Origin: Acanthamoeba castellanii str. Neff
Taxonomy: Eukaryota > Discosea > Longamoebia > Acanthamoebidae
Length of the DNA: 64,000 nt
Reading direction: 5' to 3'
NCBI RefSeq assembly: GCF_000313135.1
Contig: NW_004457592.1
Coordinates: 5,976-69,975, forward strand
The notes beneath the pieces were generated by a model that worked only from the letters and a program-made list of their open reading frames with translations, searched no databases and was not told the origin of the DNA. Within the stretch, counting starts at the first letter, position 1; every line of letters starts with the position of its first letter. Positions 780 through 58,143 of the stretch are shown here, in pieces. Both the position numbers and the translations under genes were made by a program.

Positions 780-1891
780 ATGCGTCCCAGCACACTTCTC
801 GCCCTCTCCGCTGCCCTCTGCTTCTTCTTCTTGGCCTCCGCCTCGCCGGATGAGCCCCTCCGGCATGCCGACCCTTTCCGGGGGGAGTTTACCGAGTGGA
901 CGAGGACCCACGCCAAGTCCTACTCCACCGAGGAGTTCGTCTTCCGGCTGAGTGTGTGGCGCGAGAACAAGCGCTTCGTCGAGGAGCACAATCGCCAGAA
1001 CCACAGCTATAGCCTTGGCATGAACCAGTTTGGCGATCTCACCGCCGACGAGTTCCGGAGGATCTACACCACTGACATGTCCAGCTTCGCTGCTGCCACT
1101 GCTCCTATCACGAAGGAGGAGGAGGAGTACAACGCCACCACCTCCGAGGCTGCCTCCCCGGCCTCGTCCGTCGCCACCCCGCGAGCCTCGACTGGAGGAC
1201 GTGGGGAGGCGTACAAGCCGTCAAAAACCAGGGTACATTCCCTCCCCCAGAGCTTGATCAGCCACCTGTCTTGATGTTGTGATTCTTCATTTTTTCAGGT
1301 TCGTGTGGCTCTTGCTACGCGTTCTCGGCAGTCGGTGCCCTCGAGACCGCCCACTGGCGCAAGTATGCCACTCTCCCGAACCTTTCCGAGCAGCACCTCG
1401 TCGACTGCACGGGCGAGTACGGCAACGGCGGCTGCAGTGGTGGTTGGATGCACACCGCCTACCGCTGGCTCCAGGACAAGGGCGGCTCGGTCTCCCAGCT
1501 CTCTTATCCCTACACGGCGAGCGTCGGTGCCTGCCAACACGCTGCCAAGCCCAAGAGTGCGTTTGTGCAACACTACACTCGGATACCCGCCGGCAACGAG
1601 AACGCTCTCCTCGATGCCGTTGCCACGACCGGGACCGTCGCCATCGCCTACAACGCCGGGACCCAAGCCCACGCGTACTACCAGGGCGGCATCCTCGACG
1701 TACCCAACTGCGGGAACACGCCCACCCACGCAGTGCTGCTCGTCGGCTACGGTACCGAGAATGGCAAGGACTTCTGGATCCTCAAGAACTCGTGGGGTTC
1801 GGGCTGGGGCGAGGGCGGCTACTTCAGGCTGGCGCGCGGCAAGAACATGTGCGGGATCGCTGACTGGGCCTCCTACCCCATCGCCTTATAA
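780..1891 (+). CDS. Cathepsin L-like cysteine protease (papain family C1A)
   Basis: Secreted or lysosomal endopeptidase. The start codon at 780 gives a signal peptide (hydrophobic LLALSAALCFFFLASA), then an I29 inhibitor propeptide with FTEWTRTHAKSYS and a GMNQFGDLTADEF segment. The mature enzyme begins near LDWRT, followed by VKNQG. Intron 1 is 1233-1299 less one base (GT at 1233, exon 2 from 1299). Exon 2 carries the catalytic cysteine in GSCGSCYAFS (CYAF instead of the usual CWAF), CSGGWMHTAYRW, the catalytic histidine in NTPTHAVLLVGYG and the asparagine in KNSWGSGWG. The propeptide frame and the DWRT frame do not agree: about one base is missing near 1180 in a C/G run. All catalytic residues are intact, so I favour a sequence error over a true pseudogene. 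Confidence 0.9.
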
Positions 1892-2090
1892 TTAGGTCGC
1901 CCATGTTTGTTCTCTCTGCAAGAACATAAGAGAGTTGGTAATATGGGTGTGCATATATGGTGGTGTAGTACTCTGTACAGCCCCGATCTCTCTGGTGGCG
2001 GCGGCGGCGGCGGTGTGTGGTGTCTCGGTGTGTGTCTGTGTTTGGTGGGGGTGGTCCTTTTGGTGCTCTCGTTATTTTGGAAGAGGGGCC

Positions 2091-2891
2091 TCAGTCGTCG
2101 CCGAGATCCTTGAGCAGCAGGTCCTTGGCTTCGTTCACCTTCGACGCCACGTAGTCGCTGCCTCCATTGTCTGACAAGCACGCGACAACACAAAAACGAA
2201 AGCGCGATCAGAGAGATGATCGTGTGCACAACCAGGTCCCAACTGGGTTGCCTGGTGGAGTTGTACCGGGATGGTTCGCCAACATGATCCGCCTGTGGGC
2301 CATCTTGATCTTCTCCTTCGAGGCGCCTTGTCTATGTGTGTAACGCGCGCCAGGGAAGGAGAAGAGAAGAAGAAGGAGAACGTACATGTAGGTAAGTCTC
2401 GACTGGGTGGGCAAGGCGGTCGTGAGTGCTTGGGAGGGGTCGCGTACCGGACACTGAGGATGAGAGCGGCTTCGGCGCGGGTCATCTCCGACTCAAAGCC
2501 GCCCGTGTAGTAGGACTTCATCCTCGATGGACCCTTGGGCACCACTGCACAAGCAAGCCGAGCCCACCATAGCTCAGACACAGCAAAGAAAAAGGGAAAA
2601 TCGGCAGAGATGAAAGATGAAGATTAAATTGAAAATGTGGAGGGAACAACGTACTGCCCTTGGGGAGGGTCAAGTTGCCGGCCTTGAAGTGCTTGTAGGC
2701 GTTCATAGCCACGCGCCCACCGATGGCCACACCAGCAATCACCACACCCGCCACAAGAAGAGTAGCCTTGCCGGGGGGGGGGTAAATTAAATCGTGGATA
2801 AGAAAAATGCGTAAGCGACACTTCATTTGCAGGCCTGTGCACATCAAAGTGATGCACACGGCGAACCCCCTCCTCTAATGCTGCGTACCAT
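2091..2891 (-). CDS. TIM14: TIM14/Pam18, mitochondrial import motor J-protein (DNAJC19 type)
   Basis: Subunit of the presequence translocase-associated motor; its J domain stimulates mitochondrial Hsp70 at the inner membrane. I read five exons on the minus strand: 2891-2889 (only ATG), 2766-2655, 2544-2448, 2331-2267 and 2170-2091. The product is about 115 residues, normal for the family. A single N-terminal membrane segment (ATLLVAGVVIAGVAIGG) is followed by YYTGGFESEMTRAEAALIL, AHRRIMLANHPD and a C-terminal VNEAKDLLLKDL. The HPD motif is complete only after splicing, because intron 4 splits the Asp codon. The first exon is a bare start codon. The family match is clear from GGFE.MT..EA and the HPD region. 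Confidence 0.93.
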
Positions 2892-3040
2892 TTGCTCCCG
2901 GATCGATACAGCGGCAGATGGTCGCAGATGCAAGTTCGAAGAAAGGGAAAAGAAATGTCAAAACAGAAACTATGGGAAAAGAATGTCGACAGTTTTCACT
3001 GTTTATTATTAATCCCTACTAAGCGAAGATCGAACACAAA

Positions 3041-4259
3041 ATGATGAGGGCCGTTCTGGTTGTGGTGGCTCTGCTGGCCGTGTCGCTGGTGCACCTGTCC
3101 TCGGGTGCGCCGGAGCCTGCGTGCTGCTTCCCGCGCCACTTCGTCTCCTCCTACGAACACTTTGCCGACCAGGGCGGATTTCAGGTTCCTGCCTCCACAT
3201 CTCTTTATATCCTTCTCCCATCTCTTCTGCATCTTCTTCATCTTCGCTTTTTCTTTCTCACTTCCCCTCAACCTCGATAGGCGAACATCCGCTATTCGGA
3301 GGACTACGGCGTCCGGCTCGATACCAGCCTGTGGGACCCCAAGGCCGTGGCCTCCCGCGCCCAGGTCTACCTACTCAAGGTCCCCCCTCTTCTCTCTTTT
3401 CCTTCGCTTTCGTTTTCGCTTTCGCTTTCTGTTTGTGGAAGTGGAGAGTGACCGGCCCTCACGTCTGACGTTGATGACCAGACCGGCCACCTGTACGAGT
3501 ACAACGTGACCTCGGGCAGTTGCGTTCACTTCGAATGTTCTTCGTGCTTCACGGTACGTGCGCACTCCAAGCGCGACCGGCTGCGTGTCACACCAGTCCT
3601 GTGTGCGTGTGCGTGTGCGTGTGCGTGTGCGGTGGTGCGCGTGCGGTGGTGCGCGTGCGTGTGCGTGCAGCGGAGTGTCTCACATGCGGTGGTGCCTTTA
3701 CTCGATCATACAGCCCTTTTGCACCGGTCAGAACACCGCCTTCCGCTTCGCTGGAAACGTCACCATCGGCAGCCAGAACGCTCAGAAATGTAACCTCTCT
3801 TTTATGTCGTGTGTCGTGTGCCGTCACAATGGAATGTGTGCACTTACCTTTTTGTTTGCAGGGGCTGTGCGTGCTGGGGAGGAGTTCTACAGCGAGATCA
3901 CGGCCGTCGGCAGCCGGCCCGGGCAATGCATTCCCGTCAACGAGCTCGCCATGTCCGGCATGTACCTCGAAGCCGTACGCACCCCCCAACCATTGGCTCC
4001 TTACGACCACTTGGTTTTGTGCTGCTGACGTGTCGCTCTGTCTTTTTGGTTCCTCACGCGCGTGCAGGACACCCGATACTCGAACTCATTCTTCTACAAC
4101 GTGCGCCCGTTGAGCTCGCTCGACGGCAGCTTCTTCAACCCGCCGGCGTCCTGCCGGGACGTGCACGTGACGACGATGACGCCGACGACCCGCCCGCAGC
4201 ACTTCCCGCCCGCATTCCTCTCCCTCGAGGGCCAGGCGCGCCTGCTTGGCGTATTGTGA
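3041..4259 (+). CDS. Ependymin-like secreted glycoprotein
   Basis: Extracellular protein of the ependymin-related family, whose function in amoebae is not established. Six exons join in one frame: 3041-3184, 3281-3379, 3482-3553, 3714-3789, 3862-3974 and 4068-4259. The N-terminus is a signal peptide (RAVLVVVALLAVSLVHLSSG). The mature part has cysteines in CCFPRHF, GSCVHFECSSCF and PFCTGQ, a C in RPGQCIPVNE, and the family-typical ending FYNVRPL..FFNPPASCRDV. One N-glycosylation site is visible (NVT). The pattern of cysteines and the FxPPxxC ending match ependymin-related proteins. A CA/GT-rich intron lies at 3554-3713. The next intron is a multiple of three long, so unspliced reading also stays open there. 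Confidence 0.75.
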
Positions 4260-4434
4260 GCCCCGCGCGAGCGAAATGTGCCTCCGCTGGTGTCGAACAC
4301 CGCGTGCGGCTCGAACAGCGCCAGAAAACGAAATACGAAGGAATTCGTAGTCGTCATTCTTTGGGGGGGGGGTAATCGGACCTAAATGAACAATTAATTG
4401 GTTGCAAACAGAATTGCTCGAAAGATCTCCTGTG

Positions 4435-7400
4435 ATGCAAGAGCTTGTCGATTACGCGGACACCTCAATGGAGGTGGATCACGACTCTCTAGCGTTCTTG
4501 GCCGCGTCGGCAGCGGCTGCGCAAGAAGGCACAGTGATTGTTTACACGCCACAGGTCGTCAAGATCGCAGATTTGCAATCATCCACTGTCGGAAGCCTAC
4601 TGCAGGCGCTTGGAAAAAACGACGGAGGTACATAATGATTTATGATTCATTATTTGTGGTCTTTGTCACCCCCCCCCGCGGCCGGGTGGCTTATGAAAGT
4701 TGGTTTCCGTGTAGCGCACGAACTCGCTTTGCGTAGATCTCCCGCAATGCCACTGCAAGTGTCGGCGCCAGTTTCCGCCGGCCAAGTCTTTGGTACTCCG
4801 CCCTCCACATCTGTGTTCTGCGTGTTTCGCCTGCGCTCTGTTTGATGTTTAACGCTCGTGTGTAGTGGTCCGTCATGCTTCGGTGGCGGAGCGGGAAAGA
4901 GCGTATGAGCAGGAGGCGTGGTTCCGACGCCAAAGAGACCACCGACGACAATTCACCTATTCACGGTGGCAGATCCCTATTCCTGCAAACAAGGCCCCTG
5001 TCGACAGGCTCCTGGTCCACTTCGTGCCGGTGGCAAAAATCGGGCTGGTGGTAGAGATGCACCACCTGTGTGGTCATGGTCAACCAACTGTTGCTCACCT
5101 GCTCAACTACCTCTTTGCCTGGGGTACGTCCTCCTCAATGCGTTCGAAGTGCGCATAGGCCGCCTCCAGCGGCTGCATTTGTGATTGCCATGGTTTGACG
5201 GTTGATGTGCCATTGACATCTGGCATATATGTGCGGTGGTGCGTGGCATATATGCAGGAACCCTGCTCGCTCGTGTGCATGATCATGTTTCTCTCCCCCT
5301 CTGGTCAATAAGACTTGACAGCAACGAGCAAAATTGGTACGCCATCCTGCTTAGTTGGTCATTCCCTGTCCACTCATAGTCACAGTGGTGGTTGGCAGGG
5401 AGAATGAAGACTTCCGCCAGTGGTGGAAACAACGCTTGACGCGTGCAGTTCCGGCTTTGGTGTACTCCGTCCGGTTTATTGATGACCGCTGGCAACAACA
5501 ATACAGAGATCTACGCTCCTTCAGCCAACAACTGTTGTCATGTGGTATGTGGGACAATTGCTTGCCATGCTCAGACACCACACAAAACTCACCGAGGCTT
5601 AATGCCTCATGCACAGTGGGGCCACGTGCACTTCGCAGCCGTAGTTGGGTGTCATTGCGCGACAGCCAAGAACCCCTCCCTGGCAATACCCCCGTATCAA
5701 AGGGCTGCATCTATGATATCCTTTACCTCCCCATCTTTTCTTTACAATGTTGCTTTGGGCTCTCAGGCAACCACCTTAACTCAGCTCTTCTACAATTCCA
5801 CACTTCTGTGATCACTCTTCCAGGACCTGGAGAGCAAGCTACCATCCTTCGGGATGATGTGCACTCAATTGCTGTCGTGGGCAACAATGGAGCAGGCAAG
5901 ACTCGCTTTGCCCATCACACAACAACATCAGCCGGTGCCCGGAAGGTGGTCATCAATGCCCTCCGCGATCTTGGGTACCACAGCCACCACCCCACTGCTC
6001 TTTTGCTGGTCTGACTTGCAAATTGTGTGCCCAGTGACCAGAGATCACAACTCCCTGATGAGCTTGCTCAAGTGGTGGCACAACACGACAAGCTGACCAG
6101 GGTGCGTACTGTACCAATCAACATTCCTTGCATTGAGCTGTATGATCAACATGCTCTTGTGGTACATGCTGCAGGTGGCCGCTAGCTTTGCCGAGCTGTG
6201 TTGCCACCATGTTATCCTCAATCAGGATTCTGGCGGCCTGGAGATCATCAATAGCAAATCGAAACAGTACAGCCCCAAGAAGTTGAGCGCAGGCGAGGGC
6301 AGCATCTTCCTGATCCTGTGCCAAGTGGCGTGTGCGCCCATGAACGCCTTGGTGATCATCGACGAGCCGGAGCTGCATCTCGAGCAGGCCAAGTCTGTGC
6401 ATCTGTGCACCGTGCTCGAGCGAATGCGGCCCGACGTGTTCTTTGTCTACCTCACCCACCAGCTGGCCATTGCCTCGCGTCCAGTGTCACGATGCATTCA
6501 TGTCAAGTCTTTTCGGGCACGTGGTCTCTTCGTTCTCCTTCTCACGTTCTTCTTCTCATCACTGATGTTGGTGGTGTGCAGGGAAGAAAAGAATGGGAGA
6601 TGATTCCGCCCGACCTGCCCGACCTGGCGGTCAAGCTGCTGAGCAAGCCCGAGATGAACGTGCTCTACATCGAAGGCACCAATCACGGGAAGGACAACTC
6701 CTTGCGGGATGTCCAGGTCTACGGCCCGCTGTTCCGCAACGGCTTCAATCTTCGCTCGCTCGGAGGGTGCTCCGCCGTGATCGCAAAAACCAAGGAGACG
6801 CGCACACAGCAGTGGGCAACCAAGGTCTCGGTGAGTGGTCTCCTCGATCGCGACAACCACAGCGCCGAGTACATCAAGAAGATGGAGCGGCTTGGAATCT
6901 ACCACCTGGGAGTGTGCGAGATCGAGAATCTGCTGTGGGCGCCCGAAGTTCTGCGTCTTGTGTGCCTGAGCGTCGGGCTTTTCGCAGCAACAGAAACATC
7001 CCCCTCGATCGATCGGTCATCGTCGTCATCGTCGTCATCATCTTCATCGGCGTCAGCACCGGCACTGGAGCTGGCACCGGCAGCTTCCTCTTCCGCTTCA
7101 GCCTCACCGCCCTCTTCAGCTGCACCCGGCACAAGCGATCCCATGCCAGCGGCGGTGCACGAGTTCTACCAACAGTTGTTCGATTTGCTGCGAGAGGGAA
7201 AGAAGGACACATCGAAGAGCAGGAGTCCCTACAAGGCAATCGTCGCCGGGATCGTCGAGCATTGGAAGCGCTACCTCCGCCAGGGCACCGACCGAGACTG
7301 CTTCGACTACTTCAGCCAATCGTTGCCCGGTGGCGCGATTCGAGAAGATGAGAATATCCAGCGCCAGCCGCTCGCCAAGGTCATCAACGACAAGCTCTGG

Positions 7401-7764
7401 AACCTCAGCCACGAACTCGAGACGCTGGAGGGAGACCAAGCTCTGGAGAAGGCCGAGGAGGCCCTACAGACGCTCGAGAAGCTGGCGGCACAAGACGAGG
7501 GTCAGGCGAAGGCCAAGCTGACCGAGTGGGCCACGGCGCTGGTGGACGACATCATCGAGCAGAGAGACGTGGAGCGCGCACTCGAGCATCTCAGCCACAA
7601 GGCACTGGTGGAGGAGGTCAACCGGTTTATTCGGAAGAAGGCAGGCCTCGGCCTCGAGTTCGATGTTCGTAAGACGGTGGTCCGCATGCTCGAGACAAGT
7701 GCAGAGATGCGTCATGCGATTTTGCTGCGGGTTCCGGTCGAGTTGCGCGACCACAAGCAAAGAG
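4435..7764 (+). CDS. P-loop ATPase + TOPRIM/DUF4435-like protein, copy A (OLD/PARIS-like)
   Basis: I know no characterised eukaryotic counterpart. Visible order: (1) N-terminal exons with two ubiquitin-like-looking segments, near 4545-4625 (TVIVYTPQVVKIADL, LLQALGKND) and 5000-5130 (GLVVEMHHLCG, LLNYLFAWG); (2) an ABC/OLD-type ATPase with Walker A GNNGAGKT (about 5880-5903), signature LSAGEGS (6283-6303), Walker B LVIIDEPELHLEQA (from 6349) and an H-loop TH; (3) from about 6587 a TOPRIM-like domain with VLYIEG (Glu codon 6672), GLLDRDN (6840-6857) and EIENLL (6918-6935), the arrangement of DUF4435; (4) a poly-Ser linker (7015-7050); (5) a helical C-terminal region. Exon joints before 5820 are uncertain, and the first two introns do not join in one clean frame. 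Splicing at 7764/7835 leads in frame into copy B, so both may be one protein. Confidence 0.75.
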
Positions 7765-7834
7765 GTCCGTGTCTCTCCACTGAGTCTCTTTATCGAGGTT
7801 TCGCGAGACTGAGATGTTGCTTGTTTGTATGCAG

Positions 7835-10800
7835 GGCTCGTGACCAGCGAACAATCGAGTGTGCAGAAGCTGGCGCGATTCCTCGGAGAGACTGTACGGT
7901 CGCCACCAGTTGGTTTGATGTGTTGGCCCCGTGTGACCGAATGTGTGCATTTGCGTGCAGACGGTGGCCCTTCCGATCAGCGACGACCAGTCAGGCCTCA
8001 CCGTGACACTGAAGCTCGAGCTTCCCGCACCCGCAACTGCAGAACTAGTGCTTCAGGCGCTTGGAGTGTGGGGTACGCACATCTGCCTTGCTATTCTGCT
8101 GGTGCTCGGTGCTCAAGGCCATCACTTCTTTGCCCTTTCCAGCACTCCAGCTGGCCGCCAAGGTCGTGGGAGGCAAAAAGAAAAACCAAAACGCTTGGCG
8201 CCATTGGCTGGAAATGCAGATAAAGAGCGGAAAGTTAACGATGAACGACAGCTCCTCTTCTACGAGCGGGTGGCCAGCTGACCAGCTGGAGCTTGGTACT
8301 TCTCCGCCCCTGTCATGCTTTCCTTTTTGAGGAACTACTGATCATACGCCAGTACGCCAGTACAAGCATGCCCGAGGAGTACTGTCAACAGACGCTGCTG
8401 GGTCAATTCTCCTCAAGTTCACGGACGTTGTGCCAGACCAAAAGCTCTATATCCTCTTTACCTCTTGGACGTGTTGTTTGCGTGTGCGTGTGCGAGTGCG
8501 TGTGAGGTGATGCGTTTCGTCAGGTTTCCTTAGCCATCGTTACATTTTCATCGCCGCAAAGTCGTTCTGCCGCAAGAGCTTACGCAACAGGTCAAGATTG
8601 AAGAGTTGAACCTCGACGGCGCACGTTCGATGACGATTGTGGGACCCAACGGTGTTGGCAAGACTGCCCTCGCACGATCGTTTGCTCGTGGTGCAACTAC
8701 CCAGTGCATCTGGGCCTATCGTGGGTGTGGGTACGCTTGCTCCTCTCCCTCCCCACCGGCAAACGTACTACCAATTAATACGCCACAAACACACTCTTTT
8801 TGCAGCAACTACATGAAGAAGCAGCAAACGAAGCCTTATGAACAAGTTGTGGAGGAGCACCAGCGCCGTGGAGTTGGGTCGACCCTTCTGGATGAGGTGC
8901 CCAACTCTCTCTTCACCTCCTGCGCCTGCTTGTGCTGGGGTAACAGCTGACATGCAATCCTTAGATCAATGAGGATTTCTTCGCCCTCGTTCAGCTCAGA
9001 GTCAGCTGCACGGAAAAACTCGGGCTTGTGGTTCAACGGTTCAACAGTGCGGGCGACCCTGTAGAGCACTCAACTGATAGTCTGAGCGCGGGCGAGGGCA
9101 GCATCCTGAGCATCCTGTGCGACGTGGCTCTGGCTCCCATCGGAGGCCTGGTGATAATCGACGAGCCCGAAATGCACCTCGAGCAGGCCAAGTCTGTGCT
9201 GCTGTGCCAGATCCTTGAGGAACGGCGGCCTGACGTGTTCTTCGTGTACATCACCCATCAGCCCGAGATCGCAGCGCGTCCTGTGTCTCGCTGCATCAGC
9301 GTGACATTGCCGACACCGGTATGTAGTGTTGTATGTCTTGTGTCGCATGTGGCGTGTGGCGTGAATGGCGTGTGCGTTCACGGTGATGCGTGTGCGGTGG
9401 TGCCTGCGTGTGCGTGTGCGTGCGATGAGCACCTCCCCGGCAGCCATTGAAGAGTTGTACTTCGCTGTTGAGTGCTGGAAAGTGTGGCCTGACGCATATG
9501 CGTGTTGGACGTTGCAGGGCAAGGCGATGTACACCCACGTTGGTGATGATCTGATGATGATGAAGTTGGCAGCCAAGCTGCTCAGCAAGCCCGAACGTCA
9601 CGTTCTCTTCATCAACGATCGTGCCCCCCTCGCCGACCAACCGCCGCACGCAACGCAGCACCCGTCGTCGCCCATCGCGAAGCAGGTCTACGGACCGCTG
9701 TTCCGCAACCACTTCACTCTGCGCACGGTGCACACGACGAACCACGACGAAGATGACGTGATCGAGACCACCAAGCGGACGAAGGCGCAGCTGTCTGGGC
9801 TCGATGCCACCGTGGTGGCGGGTCTGGTCGACCGGGCCAACCACAGCGCCGACTATATCGAGATGATGAGCGGCAAGGGCATCTACCACCTTCAAGTGTG
9901 CGAGGCGGAGAATCTGCTGTGGACGCCCGAGGTGCTGCGTCTCGTGTGCGTCAGCATCGGCCTGGTGGGCACCTCGGAGCTGGAGAGTGCTGGTGGGCGA
10001 CGACGCAAGGTGGACGACCTGTACGGCGACATCGACAGTATCAATAGTGACGACTGCACCCCTGTGGACGGCGTGAGCCACGGCCAGCGCAGCAGACACC
10101 CGGGACACAGCGCCAAGCGCATTCGCTACAACCGGAGCCGCTCGGCATCATGTCCCTCCGCGGCTGCGGTCGAGCACCAGCCCGAGGAATTTGAGGCGCT
10201 CGCCTCATCGTCGTCGTCGTCATCGTCGTCGTCGGCACTGCCGCTAGCGAACACATCCAATGACCTGGAAGGGATGGAGGCCTGCGAGTTCTTCGCCGAG
10301 CCCGAGGAATTTGCGGCGCTCGCCTCCTCGTCATCGTCGTCATCATCGTCGTCATCGTCGTCATCGTCGGCGTCGTCGGCACTGCCGCCGGCGAACACAT
10401 CCAATGACCTGAGAGGGATGGAGGCGGTCCGCGAGTTCTTCGCCGGGCTGTTCGCCTCTCTGCGGCAGGAGAAAGACGACGTCAAAGGCAAATCGACATC
10501 ATCGGCCTCGATCTACGACGGGATGATCGCCGGCATCGTCGAGAGGTGGACCGCCTATCTCCAGCAACATACCGAGAGCGAGTGGAAGCACGACAAGACG
10601 CTCAAGGACGCCAAAGGGAAGGCCAAGCAGCAGAAGGGGAAAGAAAAGTTGGATGCGACCGCTACGGCGAGCGTGTCCACCAGCAACCCTACGGAGCTTC
10701 CAGTCGTGCGCTACTTCCGCGAGGCGTTGCCCGGCAGCCACCAGCACGCAGCAGCGGTCCCCAGGCGCGAGACGGTGGCCGCACGCATCCGGCGCCACGT

Positions 10801-11472
10801 CACCGAGCTGAGAGCGAAGATGGTGCTCAAGGACCACAACACCAACAAGTGGGACGAACTGGCGAAGCTGCAGCAGGCCGAAGTCGCGAAGACACTCGAG
10901 GCGATCAAGAACATCAAGATTGACGACGAGGCCGAGGCCGACGAAATCTACAACTCGCTGAACGCTTGGGCGCAGGAGCTGGTCGACGACATCGTGGAGA
11001 GCGGCGACGTGGAGCGCGCGCTCGAGCATCTCAGTCACCCGGGCGTGGTGGACAAGCTCAACGATTTCCTGCGGCAGAAGAAGGGCGCCGCCAGCAGTGA
11101 ATTCGACATTCGGCAGTCCGTCAGAAAGCTGTTGGAAACGAGCGAGGACATGCGCCAGGCCATGCTGCTGCGCATGCCGCCTGCACTGCTGGACGTCATG
11201 CAGGCTGCCGACGACAGACAACGTGCGACCGGCGGTACAACCCACAACACCTTTTTGCATTATTTGAAGCTCTGCAATGTTGGACTCTCATCTCATTTGT
11301 TCAATCCACACACTCTCTCTGCAGCAGTGGCGCGCCCAGTGCTGAGCGCAACCAGGCTGGGTCAGTTGCGTTTCCCTCGCACTGCTACCGAGGTACCGTA
11401 CTCCGGAGGACATTCATTTTTGTACAGCACAGCACAACTCATCCCATTCTCTGGTATACACAGACAAACTGA
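7835..11472 (+). CDS. P-loop ATPase + degenerate TOPRIM-like protein, copy B
   Basis: Paralogous second module of the same locus. It opens with GLVTSEQSSVQKLARFLGET, then an exon GLTVTLKLELPAPATAELV..LQALGVWG that matches the N-terminal segments of copy A, and LLKFTDVVPDQKLYILFTSW. The ATPase has Walker A GPNGVGKT (about 8642-8665), signature LSAGEGS (about 9082-9102) and Walker B LVIIDEPEMHLEQA. The TOPRIM-like part has VLFINDR in place of VLYIEG and GLVDRANHS in place of GLLDRDNHS, so the Glu (9614) and the second Asp (9836) are lost; AENLLW remains. A basic stretch (AKRIRYNRSRSAS), two poly-Ser repeats and a long helical tail follow. The last exons are about 11327-11392 and 11464-11472. 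No ATG exists in the first exon, which argues for fusion to copy A; 7943 is an alternative start. Confidence 0.75.
10183..10440 (+). repeat. In-frame tandem duplication with poly-Ser (TCG/TCA) tracts
   Basis: Two coding units of about 40-45 residues in copy B: PEEFEALA-polySer-ALPLANTSNDLEGMEACEFFAEP, then PEEFAALA-polySer-ALPPANTSNDLRGMEAVREFFA. The serine tracts are TCG/TCA triplet repeats of different length (about 10 and 18 serines). It is an unstable linker between the TOPRIM-like and helical regions; copy A has one simple poly-Ser linker at the same place. Confidence 0.85.
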
Positions 11473-11960
11473 ATCAGCCGGTCGCTTGCCTCCCACGGAG
11501 GCGGTACTTCACGTGTAGGTCTAACCCACCCAGAGTCAACATTCCAAGCAAAATGCAGTCTTTTCTTCTGTCTTTCCCAACACACCTCGCGCCGAGTTAG
11601 CCGTCGTGGTTGCGTTGCCGCTCCTCCTGGCCTTGGGTTTGTTCGCGTGATTGTGTCGATCGCTAGGGAGCCAAGGAATCGCTCTCAGCACCGTTTAGCC
11701 ACCATTTCTCATTGATGCGGGGCAATATTGGGGCTCCGTACGGTGTTCACCTCGGCCAAGCACCCTGCGTCGGTTCGCTCAAGCATGTGAACCCGGTCCC
11801 TCTTGCACCAGCCAACCCTGCCAGTAGTCGTATGCTTGGTCCTTCCATAAAGCACCAAAAAATTTTAGTTCCGTGTTCGTGGAACAAATTGACAATTGTT
11901 GTTGCCAACCCCGACAAGCAACCCACAGTTGTCGCCAACACTCAGAGACGAAGAGAGGAG
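11473..11960. other. Intergenic stretch, nothing recognised
   Basis: About 490 bases between the end of the ATPase/TOPRIM locus and the NF-YA start. I see no coding potential that fits the neighbours, no RNA gene and no repeat. It must hold the 3' end of the first gene and the promoter of the second. Confidence 0.5.
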
Positions 11961-33593: not shown

Positions 33594-35659
33594 TTACAGC
33601 AACGCCCTCGCCAAGGTCGAGAGCCAAGGCTGAGTGTCGGCAGCCGAGCTATCCTCGCTGTCGGTGTAGTAGGGGCGGAGCTCACGAGGAACCGAAACGC
33701 GCGTCTGAGGCGCGCAGGGGTTGGTGCTGCACGAGGCCTTGATGACGATCAAGGGTCCGCCGTTGACGAGCGGGAGGGTCAGGCCGCCGCGCGTGAACTG
33801 CCCGGGCGCGGGCGGGATGGACGTCCACGGAGCGTCCTTGCCCGGGCTGCCGAACGTGGCGGGCTGCATGGTGGCTCGGACGTAGAGCACCTGGGCGGCG
33901 TTGTCCCAGTAGTAGACGTCGCCGAAGCCGTTGGCGACCTCGGCCACGGAGCTGACGTTCCTGAACGGGTGCGTGCAGACGGCCCAGCTGGTGGAGCACC
34001 ACGAAGCCGCCTGGAAGAAGATGTTGAACTTGGTGCCGGCCGGGTAGGGGAAGGCGAGCACGAGCGAGTCCTTCGGGTCCACCTGGATCTCGGTCAGGTT
34101 GAGCACGTTGGGCGTTCCAGCGGTGTAGCGGATGAACCAGCCGCCGGCCTTGTAGACGATGGGTCCGGTCAACTGGCCCATGGCGGCGAGATCGACGCCG
34201 AGGGACTCGTTGCGGCCGAAGAGGGTGGCCTTGCCGACGACGGTGCAGTTCTTGGTGCCATCTCCGTTGCCGTTGACGCAGATGGTGGAGACGATCTGCG
34301 CCTCGAGAGCGGCATTGTAGCGGAACTTGAGGGCGGCGCTGCTGTCCTTGTCGTCCATGGGACACACCCACCGCTCGGCGACGAGCTTGCAGCTGCTGTG
34401 CATCTTCCACCACTCGTCGGCCCACGCGGAACCGAGAGCGGGTAGCGGCCGAGCACGTTGGTCTGGAGCGGGTAGCGGCCGAGCACGTTGGTCTGGCCCA
34501 TGCGGTAGAGCTCCACGCCGGAGAAGCGCCCGGTGGAGCCCTCGCCGATGACCTGGACGTGCCCGCCGAAGCCGGTGAGGTACTTGTCGCTGCACGGGTA
34601 CGTGGAGTTGGTCACGGCGTCCTTGCACACGGCGTTGGCTGTGTCGGTGGGCTCGGAGTTGAACGGGTCGCCGCGCACGACGATGTTGCGCGTGAGGAGG
34701 CCCACCTCGGCCTGGTACTCGCGCCCGCCGTAGTGCTGGTAGTCGAGCGGCGCGTCGAGCTGGATGGCCGCCACGCTGCTGTCGAGCAAGGTGCGGTAGA
34801 CCTTGACGATGGTGCGCACCTCGTTCCGGTGCCAGTCGCGCGAGTCCTTGATCTCGGTCGAGGTGATGAAGATCGACTGGCCCGGCTGCCAGTTGACCAT
34901 GTCCTGGATGAAGAGGTAGCTGTCGCCCTTCTCGGCCGTCATGGCGAGGCGCGACCAGGTGGGGAAGTAGCGCATGCCGTGGATGTCCACCCGGCCGCCG
35001 CCCGACGCGGCGATGCCCTTGACTGGCGGGCTGGCCGGGAGCAGCTGCGCGTCGCGCGAGCCGTGCAGGGTGATGGTGATGTTGTTGCGCAGGCGGCACG
35101 TGGGCGAGCCGACGAGGAACTCGCCCTGCACGTCGAAGCCCGCCGCCGCCATCGAGATCTGCGCGTCGCCGAGAATGAGCGCCGAGCCAGCCGGGATGGT
35201 GATGGTCTTGAAGACGAACGTTCGGTCGATCGAGCAGGACGACACCAGCACGCGCGTATTGGCCGGGATCGTCACGTTGGTCCCATTGGCCGGAACCGAG
35301 CCGCCGGTCCAGGTCGAGGTGGCGTGCCAGTCCTTGAGGCTGTCCAACTGGTCGAGGTGCGGGCAGCCTGACTGCGGCGGGTCGACCGACGGGGTCACCT
35401 TGGCCGGTCGGTACTTGCTGTACTGCGCCACCTCGCTCCAGTGGTTCTTGACTAGAACCCGACCCGACGGGACAAGGGCGCTGGAGAGGGTCTGCGTGGG
35501 GAACACGGCACCATCGGGAAGCGAGCTGGAGCTGTAGCTGTCGCGCACGCACGTAGCGCCCGTGGCGGGCTGGGTCCCGAAGAGGGCGATCAAGAACAGC
35601 AGCAGGAGGCAAGCGGTGACGGCCCACGAGAGGTGCGAATCTAGTCGGCTCGCAGCCAT
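33594..35659 (-). CDS. Secreted G8-domain beta-helix protein (CEMIP/TMEM2-like), internally damaged
   Basis: Extracellular protein. From ATG at 35659 a signal peptide (LSWAVTACLLLLFLIALFG) leads to a G8 domain: WHATSTWTGGSVPANGTNVT, IPANTRVLVSS and ITIPAGSALILGD. Beta-helix-like repeats follow (GGRVDIHGMRYFPTWSRL, GHVQVIGEGSTGRFSGVELY). G8 proteins such as CEMIP and TMEM2 act on hyaluronan; the substrate here is unknown. At about 34436-34495 a 30-base unit is duplicated, then the frame changes to SAWADEWWKMHSSCKLVAER, which continues to the stop at 33594. After GRYPL, CEMIP-type proteins continue with HxH and a further beta-helix core; that part is missing. No introns are needed elsewhere, unlike most genes here. 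A collapsed assembly, a missed intron or a real deletion are possible. Confidence 0.7.
34436..34495 (-). repeat. Perfect 30-base tandem duplication in the G8 gene
   Basis: Two identical 30-base units encode QTNVLGRYPL twice, directly before the frame break of the G8-domain gene. A duplication at the exact break point suggests a replication or assembly slip. Confidence 0.95.
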
Positions 35660-35934
35660 GATGGGATGGTGGTACAAAGAAGAAATGAACACGAAGCCCG
35701 GCGACAACTGAAACCCAAGTCGCGGCAGTATTGGCTTTGCTCCGACTGGCCGACCATTTAATTGCCATGATCGGACTGCGGTGATAGGTTAAATAAAGTG
35801 ACGTGGCGCCAGCCCAGCTGGATGGTTGGCGCAACCAATTTGGTCCGTGATTGGGTACTGAAAGATGCGCACTGGCAACGCGTCCGATGCTCGGATTTTT
35901 CTCGGCACGTCTCCACACATTGCCCCACTATGCT

Positions 35935-55675: not shown

Positions 55676-55852
55676 CTGTGCCCCTGGTTGTGGTGGCCCT
55701 TGTTGTGCCAGTGCGCACTGGCCTCTTGGAGTGTTTCCGTTTTCACTGCATTTCTTTTTCCCTTTTGGGCGAAGGGGCGTAATTATTGTTTTTTATTTTA
55801 TCTCTGTTTAATTGGCAATAAATAATTATTCTAGTTTTGATCTTCTCGAAAG
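55676..55852. promoter_or_regulatory. Divergent promoter between two F-box genes
   Basis: Only 177 bases separate the two start codons. It is notably AT-rich (TTATTTTATC, ATAAATAATTATT) compared with the flanking exons. Confidence 0.5.
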
Positions 55853-58143
55853 ATGGAGCTGCCAAATGAGGTGGTGCTGCTGGTGTTCGAATTCCTGGGG
55901 GTGGGCGACCTGGCAGCTTGCGCCCGCGTGAGCACCGAGTGGGGCGCACTGGCCGCCACCAACATGCTGTGGCAACACCACTACCGCGCGATCTTGGGCA
56001 ATGGCCACCCTTCATTGACGCGATTTCGATCTTCCACATCCACACCTTCATCTGCTTCAGCTCCACCCCCTGTACCAGCCAACGCACGAGAGATCGAACG
56101 TACGTTCAGCATTTCACATCCGTGTAGAGCCTCGCATCTTTTTCTCATTTTCCCAATCTTCTACTCGCGCGACACGCCACACCACGACACGCACCACCGC
56201 ACACGCACACAACCGTGCACTACGCGCAGGGGGTGGTGCTGTGGATTGGAAGCGTGCGTTGCGCGGGGCGTGGTCGGCCAAGCGGAACTGGCGCCGCGGG
56301 CGGCCCACCCACCGCGAGGCCTTCCATTGCCACACCCGGGCGTCGGGCCTCTGCTTCGATCATCGCTTCCTCTACGTCGGCCTCAACCGCGGCTGCGTGC
56401 AGGTATGTGCGTGTCGTGTGTTGTGTGTCGTGTGTCGTGTCGTGCTGACAGTAACTGCAGGTGTTTGATCTGCACTCGAACCACGACGCAGCACACGCCG
56501 ATGCCGAGACGGCGAAGGATGACGATGGCGGCGACGAAGGCAACGAAGTCTACTCCGGCGACACGTCATCAACGCCGTCAAACTCGACGGCACCCCTCAT
56601 CTACTTTCCTACATCGTCGACTTCGTCGTCGGCTTCAGGGGAGGTGGAGGCGGCGGCAGACGAAGGCGAGGGGCTGGTGGTGCCGATGGCCGACGGGCCG
56701 CGCAAGAAGCCCGTCGTGCTGCATTCTCCGCATTCCTCCTACTCTGACGTGCTCGCCATACACGACCAGCGACTCTACGCCGTCTCGGGCAAAAGCATCG
56801 TCGGTAACACGAGACACGACACGACACGCACCGCACGACACGACACGACACGACACGCGCCGCTTACTTGGTGGCTTACGACACACGTGATGTGCACACC
56901 TACAGTGTGGGACGTGGATGTGTGCGAGGCGAAGGAGATCAAGCGGGTGGAGATTGCGTACGAGGGGCACACGAACAAGGTGTCCTGCATCGACTTCAGC
57001 GGACACCACTTGATCACCGGCTCCTGGGACCAAACCATCCGGTACCCCACACCGCACACGCACGCACGCACCACCGTCCGCGCAGTGACTGAGTGTGTGG
57101 TGTTGCGTGTCGTGTTGCGTGTCGTGTGACGTGTGTCGTGTGATATCAGAATGTGGGATATTAACACGGGCGTGTGCCTGAACTCCATGACGGGCCACAC
57201 GGCCAATATCAAGCACCTCCAGACGGCCGACCATCGCATCGTCTCCAGCTCCAACGACAACACGTACGTGTGCTGAACTTCAGACACACGTGAACGCACA
57301 ACCGCACACGCACACACCACGCACGCACGCACGCACGCACACACACGCACACCGCACACGCACGCACGCACGCACGCACACACACAACCGCCGCAATGGT
57401 GCTGGTCCTCACGTGACGAGCCGCGCGCGGGTGCAGGTTGATGGAGTGGGACATGCGGAGCTGCACGCAGGTGCGGTCCACCTGCTGCACGAAGCAGTCG
57501 GCCCAGGCGGCGCCCGCGGTGTCGGCGTTCCACTACGACCCCGACCGCGATCTGATCGTCATCGGCCAGCGCGAAGGCACCGTACAAAGGTACACACACA
57601 ACACACGACCGCACGACACACACGACCGCACGACACACGACCGCACGACACACGCGACCGCACGACACGCACACGCCAGATTGTGGGACTCAACCGAACA
57701 CGATGGCCAGGTTGTGTTATTCGGAGATCTTCGCACAGAACAGGTTTCTCATGGGCATGCCCGGATCGGCGGTGATGCGCCTCCACAAGGGCCTCATCCA
57801 CCGGGTCCAGATGGACGCCTACAAGGTCTTGACCTCGGGCCAAGACGGCATCATTGGCGGTACACTCCCACGACACACACCGACACACACGACACACGCA
57901 CGACACGCACGACACACACACACGACACATACAAGGCACACCAGACGACACACACACACACACATGATCGTACAACTAACGACAGGTGTGGCCACAGTTT
58001 GGGACCTGGCGACGGGTGGGCTGCTGTACCGCGTGCAGACGGGGTGTAAAAGCTCGCTCAACGCGATGCAGTTCGACCACACGCAGCTCTTCCACGCCAC
58101 CGGTGCCTCCGTCGAGCGCCTCGCCTTCTCCGATGATTGGTGA
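55853..58143 (+). CDS. F-box/WD40-repeat protein
   Basis: Probable substrate receptor of an SCF ubiquitin ligase. N-terminal F-box: MELPNEVVLLVFEFLGVGDL, AACARVSTEWGALAAT, LWQHHYR. WD40 blades follow in separate exons: FLYVGLNRGCVQVFDLHS, SDVLAIHDQRLYAVSGKSIV, VWDVDVCEAK, EGHTNKVSCIDFSGHHLITG, SWDQTIRMWDINTGVCLNSM, TGHTANIKHLQTADHRIVSS, SNDNTLMEWDMRSCTQV, LIVIGQREGTVQRLWD, YKVLTSGQDGIIG, VATVWDLATGGLLYRVQTG. A Ser/Asp-rich insert lies after the first blade. Introns consist largely of CACACGAC-type repeats. Between FGDLRTEQ and NRFLMGMPGS (about 57725-57740) the frame changes without an obvious intron, so an error is likely. Stop at 58141. Confidence 0.82.

Follow-up and report, generated by a model that had tools for sequence, protein, structure and literature searches.

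A predicted tandem-duplicated relative of AriAB, the single-chain PARIS protein of bacteria, in a spliced gene of Acanthamoeba castellanii

The 64,000-nucleotide stretch analysed here (the window) comes from Acanthamoeba castellanii str. Neff (NCBI RefSeq assembly GCF_000313135.1, contig NW_004457592.1, positions 5,976 to 69,975 of the forward strand) and sits on contig C75 of a 38.4-Mb genome of 250 contigs. Positions 4435-11518 (+) hold a predicted spliced gene for two fused AriAB-like units, A (residues 1-771) and B (residues 772-1794), each of which runs from an ABC ATPase through a TOPRIM domain to a helical C-terminus and contains poly-serine inserts. Judged by profile matches and predicted folds, the product is a eukaryotic protein, duplicated in tandem, that is related to AriAB, the single-chain PARIS protein of bacteria. 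Profile scans of the whole genome gave matches at this locus alone. Two primer sequences for Acanthamoeba 18S gave no exact match.

Exon limits were set by hand, with open frames, GT-AG sites and homology as guides, and all 14 introns, 50 to 286 bases long, were picked as GT-AG. Fifteen exons within 4435-11515 join into an open frame of 1794 codons that is closed by a TAG at 11516-11518, so that a first-pass annotation of this DNA, made from the letters alone, had the right place and stopped slightly early, at 11472. Exons 1-3 (4435-4627, 4866-5123 and 5410-5544, all features here being on the + strand) encode an N-terminal extension of unit A that matched no Pfam domain and is the least certain part of the model. 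Exon 4 (5824-5974) carries the Walker A motif GNNGAGKT; exon 5 (6035-6101) covers the ATPase between Walker A and the signature; and exon 6 (6175-6501) carries the ABC signature LSAGEG(S), the Walker B motif IIDEPE (IIDEPELHLEQA) and the switch THQ, its donor site being one of two candidates. Exon 7 (6582-7764) encodes the DUF4435/TOPRIM domain with six invariant acids (block motifs VLYIEG, LLDRDN and EIENLL), a poly-serine insert and the C-terminal helical domain. Beyond intron 7 (7765-7834), which separates the units, exons 8-11 (7835-7893, 7961-8072, 8143-8295 and 8380-8483) form a linker and the N-terminal extension of unit B. Exon 12 (8534-8730) then holds the Walker A motif GPNGVGKT, exon 13 (8806-8896) more of the ATPase, exon 14 (8965-9318) the signature LSAGEGS, Walker B (IIDEPEMHLEQA) and the switch, and exon 15 (9518-11515) a TOPRIM fold that lacks three of the acids (block motifs VLFIND, LVDRAN and EAENLL), poly-serine inserts and a second C-terminal helical domain. 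The Walker A, signature, Walker B, switch and TOPRIM-like motifs named in the first-pass annotation thus lie where it had put them.

When a codon score was trained on exons 7 and 15 and applied to the other 13 exons, it favoured the chosen frame in 11 of them. The exceptions were exons 4 and 12, which are the two Walker A exons, and the score of exon 3 was weak. On these results per exon, the model is firm in the conserved cores and less so in the N-terminal extensions. Microsatellite-like stretches rich in TG/GCGTGT lie in or near introns at 3452-3793 (seen from the translation) and at 8460-8510 and 9330-9430 (seen from the DNA).

A single chain with both units is the likely product. Exons 8 and 9 contain no methionine, and the coding score of exons 8-11 favours the reading frame carried on from exon 7 of unit A. 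We also compared the locus with P0001, a database protein from a JGI record that is an allele of unit A exon 7 (387 of 388 residues identical); this comparison supports the limits of exon 7 and the view that a second record has the gene as well. P0001 reads through intron 7, and there its sequence differs strongly from ours, also in length, as expected of an intron. Two adjacent genes, with unit A read through to a stop at 8004-8006 and unit B beginning at a methionine of exon 10, are at about one chance in four the minority reading. They would be compatible with the frame of exon 7, which stays open as far as 8006, with the in-frame methionines within exon 10 and with intron 8 (7894-7960), which is identical to P0001 at the translated level, so that the allele gives no non-coding mark there; the methionine-free coding exons 8 and 9 and the divergence of 7765-7834 argue for one chain.

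We next consider the family of the units. The AriAB profile of PADLOC (PDLC02982) matched unit A with an E-value of 5.8e-34 (115.6 bits) and unit B with 4.2e-20 (69.9 bits), and was the top profile for both, among 28 (A) and 37 (B) PADLOC profiles at E <= 0.1. The best profile from another system, NsnB, reached 26.0 bits (A) and 28.1 bits (B). Unit A also matched the separate AriA (27.3 bits) and AriB (23.5 bits) profiles. Pfam DUF4435 in unit A scored 27.8 bits in the whole-genome scan, over its cut-off of 27, and 26.7 bits (E 5.6e-6), just below it, in the spliced protein; unit B gave no DUF4435 match at E 0.1. Pfam AAA_21 stayed below its cut-off of 27 in both units (17.4 bits in A, 24.9 in B), as did SMC_N (13.6 and 21.2 bits) and ABC_tran (21.5 and 23.4 bits) below theirs. 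A transporter or SMC ATPase was therefore rejected on these sub-cut-off scores against 115.6 and 69.9 bits for AriAB, the two sets coming from different libraries; the best NCBIfam match, an ABC-F family, reached 28.1 bits against a cut-off of 380. The proposal of the first-pass annotation that the ATPase is related to the AriA side is supported by these scores, and it is nearly certain that a homologue of AriAB lies here in a eukaryotic gene.

Relatives were sought in a database of 5.8 billion proteins. Apart from a copy of the locus itself, the closest had an E-value of 1.5e-30, and 118 of the 119 relatives listed carry DUF4435 and AAA_21 in a single chain, at 28-39% identity. Those that carry names are bacterial. 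The fused AriAB form is classed as PARIS by its domain make-up in a passage of PMC9122126. With these bacterial proteins (AAA_21 plus DUF4435) the locus shares the domain order, the ATPase motifs, the helical C-terminus and, in unit A, all six TOPRIM acids. It differs from them in being eukaryotic, in its 14 introns, tandem units, poly-serine inserts and N-terminal extensions, in a second TOPRIM without three of the acids and in an ATPase that is 56-65 residues shorter between Walker A and the signature than in the median relative.

OLD-family nucleases (class 1 OLD, GajA) likewise have an ABC ATPase followed by a TOPRIM in a single chain, and the locus had been annotated as PARIS/OLD-like. 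To our knowledge, OLD proteins are without DUF4435, which is found in the TOPRIM of unit A. For unit A, AriAB scored about 91 bits above ATPase-Toprim_I-B and PtuA (among the best 25 of 28 matches), and for unit B 45-49 bits above ATPase-Toprim_I-B, PtuA and GajA (among the best 25 of 37); the GajA profile, at 22.9 bits, was among the matches listed for unit B only. Membership of the OLD, Gabija or retron class of ATPase-TOPRIM proteins outside PARIS is therefore very improbable. The PARIS half of the annotation stood, and OLD is the less well supported half.

Models of exons 7 and 15 were then compared with solved structures. The top two structural matches of both models were the AriB chains 8v46_D and 8ux9_A. 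These chains have 305/306 residues and were taken as AriB because AriA in the two entries is the 464-residue chain. The matches came from VIA-align re-aligning the top 1000 of Foldseek, which by itself gave no significant match in the PDB; the unit B model, at 561 residues, is larger than the size range in which VIA-align performs best. A single-sequence search of the PDB detected neither AriA nor AriB. The unit B model keeps the strand and helix order of a TOPRIM. OLD TOPRIMs ranked below AriB for unit A, and no OLD chain stood beside AriB among the structural matches listed for unit B. The models thus predict an AriB-like three-dimensional fold in both units. The first-pass annotation had said beforehand that a non-TOPRIM second domain would speak against it; the DUF4435 profile on unit A and AriB as the best structural match of both units indicate a TOPRIM. 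Two-gene PARIS (AriA plus AriB; PDB 8ux9, 8v46), to whose AriB both TOPRIM halves were closest among the solved structures compared, is encoded by two genes, whereas the locus is predicted to be one gene.

In both units the ATPase has the expected residue at each of 11 motif positions (Walker A, signature, Walker B and switch histidine). Every one of the 119 relatives has the six TOPRIM acids; unit A keeps six of six and unit B three of six, with substitutions of E to N, D to A and D to A. The second of these adjoins a gap in the pairwise alignment, so that the facing residue is uncertain, and it is a non-acid in both alignments. TOPRIM A is accordingly predicted, with good confidence, to be active and TOPRIM B inactive, and in sequence unit B looks like a TOPRIM pseudo-enzyme. 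The earlier claim of an ATPase and a TOPRIM in each module holds for both ATPases and for the TOPRIM of unit A; the TOPRIM of unit B has lost three catalytic acids and gives no Pfam match to DUF4435. A second copy in decay is a possible alternative reading of the dead TOPRIM in unit B. Between the units, dN/dS was about 0.32 (0.24/0.76) in the ATPase, a value that indicates constraint on the ATPase pair. It was higher in the TOPRIM (0.64; 0.38/0.59) and the C-terminus (0.92; 0.61/0.66), and since the branch of unit B is also four times that of unit A, the two copies of the nuclease and of the C-terminus have diverged.

The distance from Walker A to the signature is 85 residues in unit A and 94 in unit B, against 150 in the median relative. 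In three of the relatives (P0016, P0044 and P0116) this distance is at most 120; these are short proteins of 431-465 residues and probably fragments. Hidden exons for the missing stretch were rejected because introns 4, 5, 12 and 13 are too short (60, 73, 75 and 68 bases).

The two units are 45-47% identical over the aligned core. In a tree of 50 sequences they were sisters with support of 100/100, on branches of 0.39 (A) and 1.68 (B). Introns 4-6 of unit A and introns 12-14 of unit B have matching positions and the same phases (2, 0, 0), which points to a duplication inside a eukaryote after the introns were present; this correspondence is supportive and non-independent, the splice sites having been chosen partly by homology. 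Together with the joined exon model and the coding scores, the sister clade agrees with the duplicated, spliced gene that had been proposed. An N-terminal domain common to A and B was not supported by comparison of the units. A long stem (4.06) leads to the A and B clade, whose bacterial sister group is poorly supported (65/48), so that neither a donor nor a date of transfer can be named. A search for tandem relatives with the whole chain as query gave none out of 7980 and was probably swamped by poly-serine words; with residues 922-1310 as query it gave one out of 7018, a weak ABC protein (E 0.075) that was taken as unrelated.

The named relatives being bacterial, we considered whether the locus is a bacterial contaminant or a dead insertion. 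There are 14 introns, some within conserved ATPase blocks, and the GC content of the locus (0.55-0.59) is like that of most of the window (about 57% overall). Poly-serine inserts lie in the gene, and F-box and CEMIP-like frames lie in the same window. No stop or frameshift interrupts the 5.4 kb of coding sequence, and the ATPase pair is constrained. Contamination or a pseudogene was rejected on the introns, the open frame and the constrained ATPase, and has hardly any probability left. A eukaryotic ancestor would instead have gained the gene from bacteria; introns would have been acquired next, followed by duplication within one gene. Taken together, these data suggest that a eukaryote has adopted from bacteria a self-sacrifice defence of the PARIS type.

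The gene context of four bacterial relatives (loci L008, L010, L021 and L022) was examined. In L008, from a metagenome-assembled genome (MAG) of Clostridia (1663-9174), the AriAB homologue (3667-5280) lies between MTase_III and REase_III of a type III restriction-modification operon, followed by SIR2, a context that suits a guard-of-restriction role. In L010, the only defence-profile match among four neighbours was a weak one, to LeoBC (47.1 bits). L021, an IMG/VR contig (430-7059), has an AriAB homologue with a long N-terminal extension after a Mu-like portal/F module, and its Mu F-like protein carries a CdiA_C domain. By Pfam, L021 (Mu-like portal, F protein) and L022 (phage tail protein) are bacterial phage or prophage. 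These two come from a viral profile search that gave at least 11 loci among 600 candidate stretches; a genome profile scan for relatives gave at least five loci among 592 stretches, and no viral relative was found with P0002 as query.

A defence role for the amoebal protein is proposed because of its family membership and the context of the bacterial relatives, and we put it at an even chance. In PARIS, a hexamer of AriA holds AriB until a viral anti-restriction protein frees it, upon which AriB dimerises and cuts tRNA (PMC11455837). An AlphaFold 3 model led to the proposal that the AriB dimer nicks once, its second site just touching the D-loop (PMC12409363); if so, a dead second TOPRIM could be tolerated. 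By analogy, a chain with one live and one dead AriB-like domain would fit this single-nick asymmetry. The ATPase part may act as an AriA-like sensor and brake which, upon an infection cue, would free the TOPRIM parts to pair in the manner of AriB; the A site alone would cut, and the B site would help to hold the substrate, most likely tRNA or another structured RNA. The resulting stop of translation in the infected cell would limit giant viruses or intracellular bacteria. We regard the pairing of A and B as a nuclease as tentative, at somewhat under even odds, and RNA as the target as a balanced guess. Taken as a whole, an AriAB relative in which A cuts and B holds RNA, defending by a stop of translation, is the best explanation and a moderately probable one.

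The main competitor is a domesticated homologue, an AriAB-derived protein in an ordinary cell role (for example DNA/RNA processing or the cell cycle) that has lost defence. The locus is single in the genome, its ATPase is shortened and its second TOPRIM has decayed, all of which would suit domestication. There is also a precedent in the archaeal OLD-family ATPase Cran1, which is described in PMC12796447 as having a part in cell cycle progression and, it appears, none in antiviral defence; it differs from the locus in being archaeal and of OLD type, and the opening of the abstract names no tandem DUF4435 units. The nuclease site of unit A is nevertheless intact, and no tandem relative was found in the protein database, whose eukaryote content is uncertain, as would be expected of a patchily distributed accessory gene more than of a conserved housekeeping one. 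We consider domestication unlikely, at a little over one chance in four, and retain the AriAB-like defence nuclease as the preferred reading.

The first-pass annotation knew of no description of such a system in eukaryotes. In agreement with this, the matches listed from the open-licence PMC literature, which leaves most subscription papers outside, include no paper that reports PARIS, AriA/AriB or DUF4435 from a eukaryote. Passages of a review hold that some bacterial defence modules have reached eukaryotes by descent or transfer, among them Argonautes, viperins, gasdermins and Detocs/PNP (PMC11249213); the word PARIS is absent from its main text. The finding places a known bacterial system in a domain of life that is new for it, with a layout that is also new. 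A eukaryotic PARIS-type sensor-nuclease would add a tRNA-cutting abortive-infection system to these modules and provide a testable antiviral candidate, and the pair of a live and a dead TOPRIM is a natural test of the proposal that only one of the two sites of AriB cuts. The strongest form of this reading, a first eukaryotic PARIS in a single self-contained molecule, in which duplication and the loss of one active site made of the symmetric AriB dimer a covalent, asymmetric TOPRIM pair (one that cuts and one that holds the substrate) under two ATPase sensors in cis, by which the amoeba nicks tRNA and so shuts off translation upon infection by giant viruses or intracellular bacteria, is doubtful at present.

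Elsewhere in the window, ARAGORN found no tRNA genes. Ten long frames outside the locus were scanned with Pfam, and no helicase was matched among them, most of the window lying outside that scan; two of the ten were above cut-off. One is a 777-codon frame at 33597-35927 (-) that matched CEMIP domain X with 34.1 bits (cut-off 27.6), and the other, at 55841-56887 (+), encodes an F-box protein (E 7.4e-11). The composition of the window shifts sharply between 40000 and 50000, the GC content being 43-44% from 40 to 44 kb and 72.7% from 48 to 50 kb.
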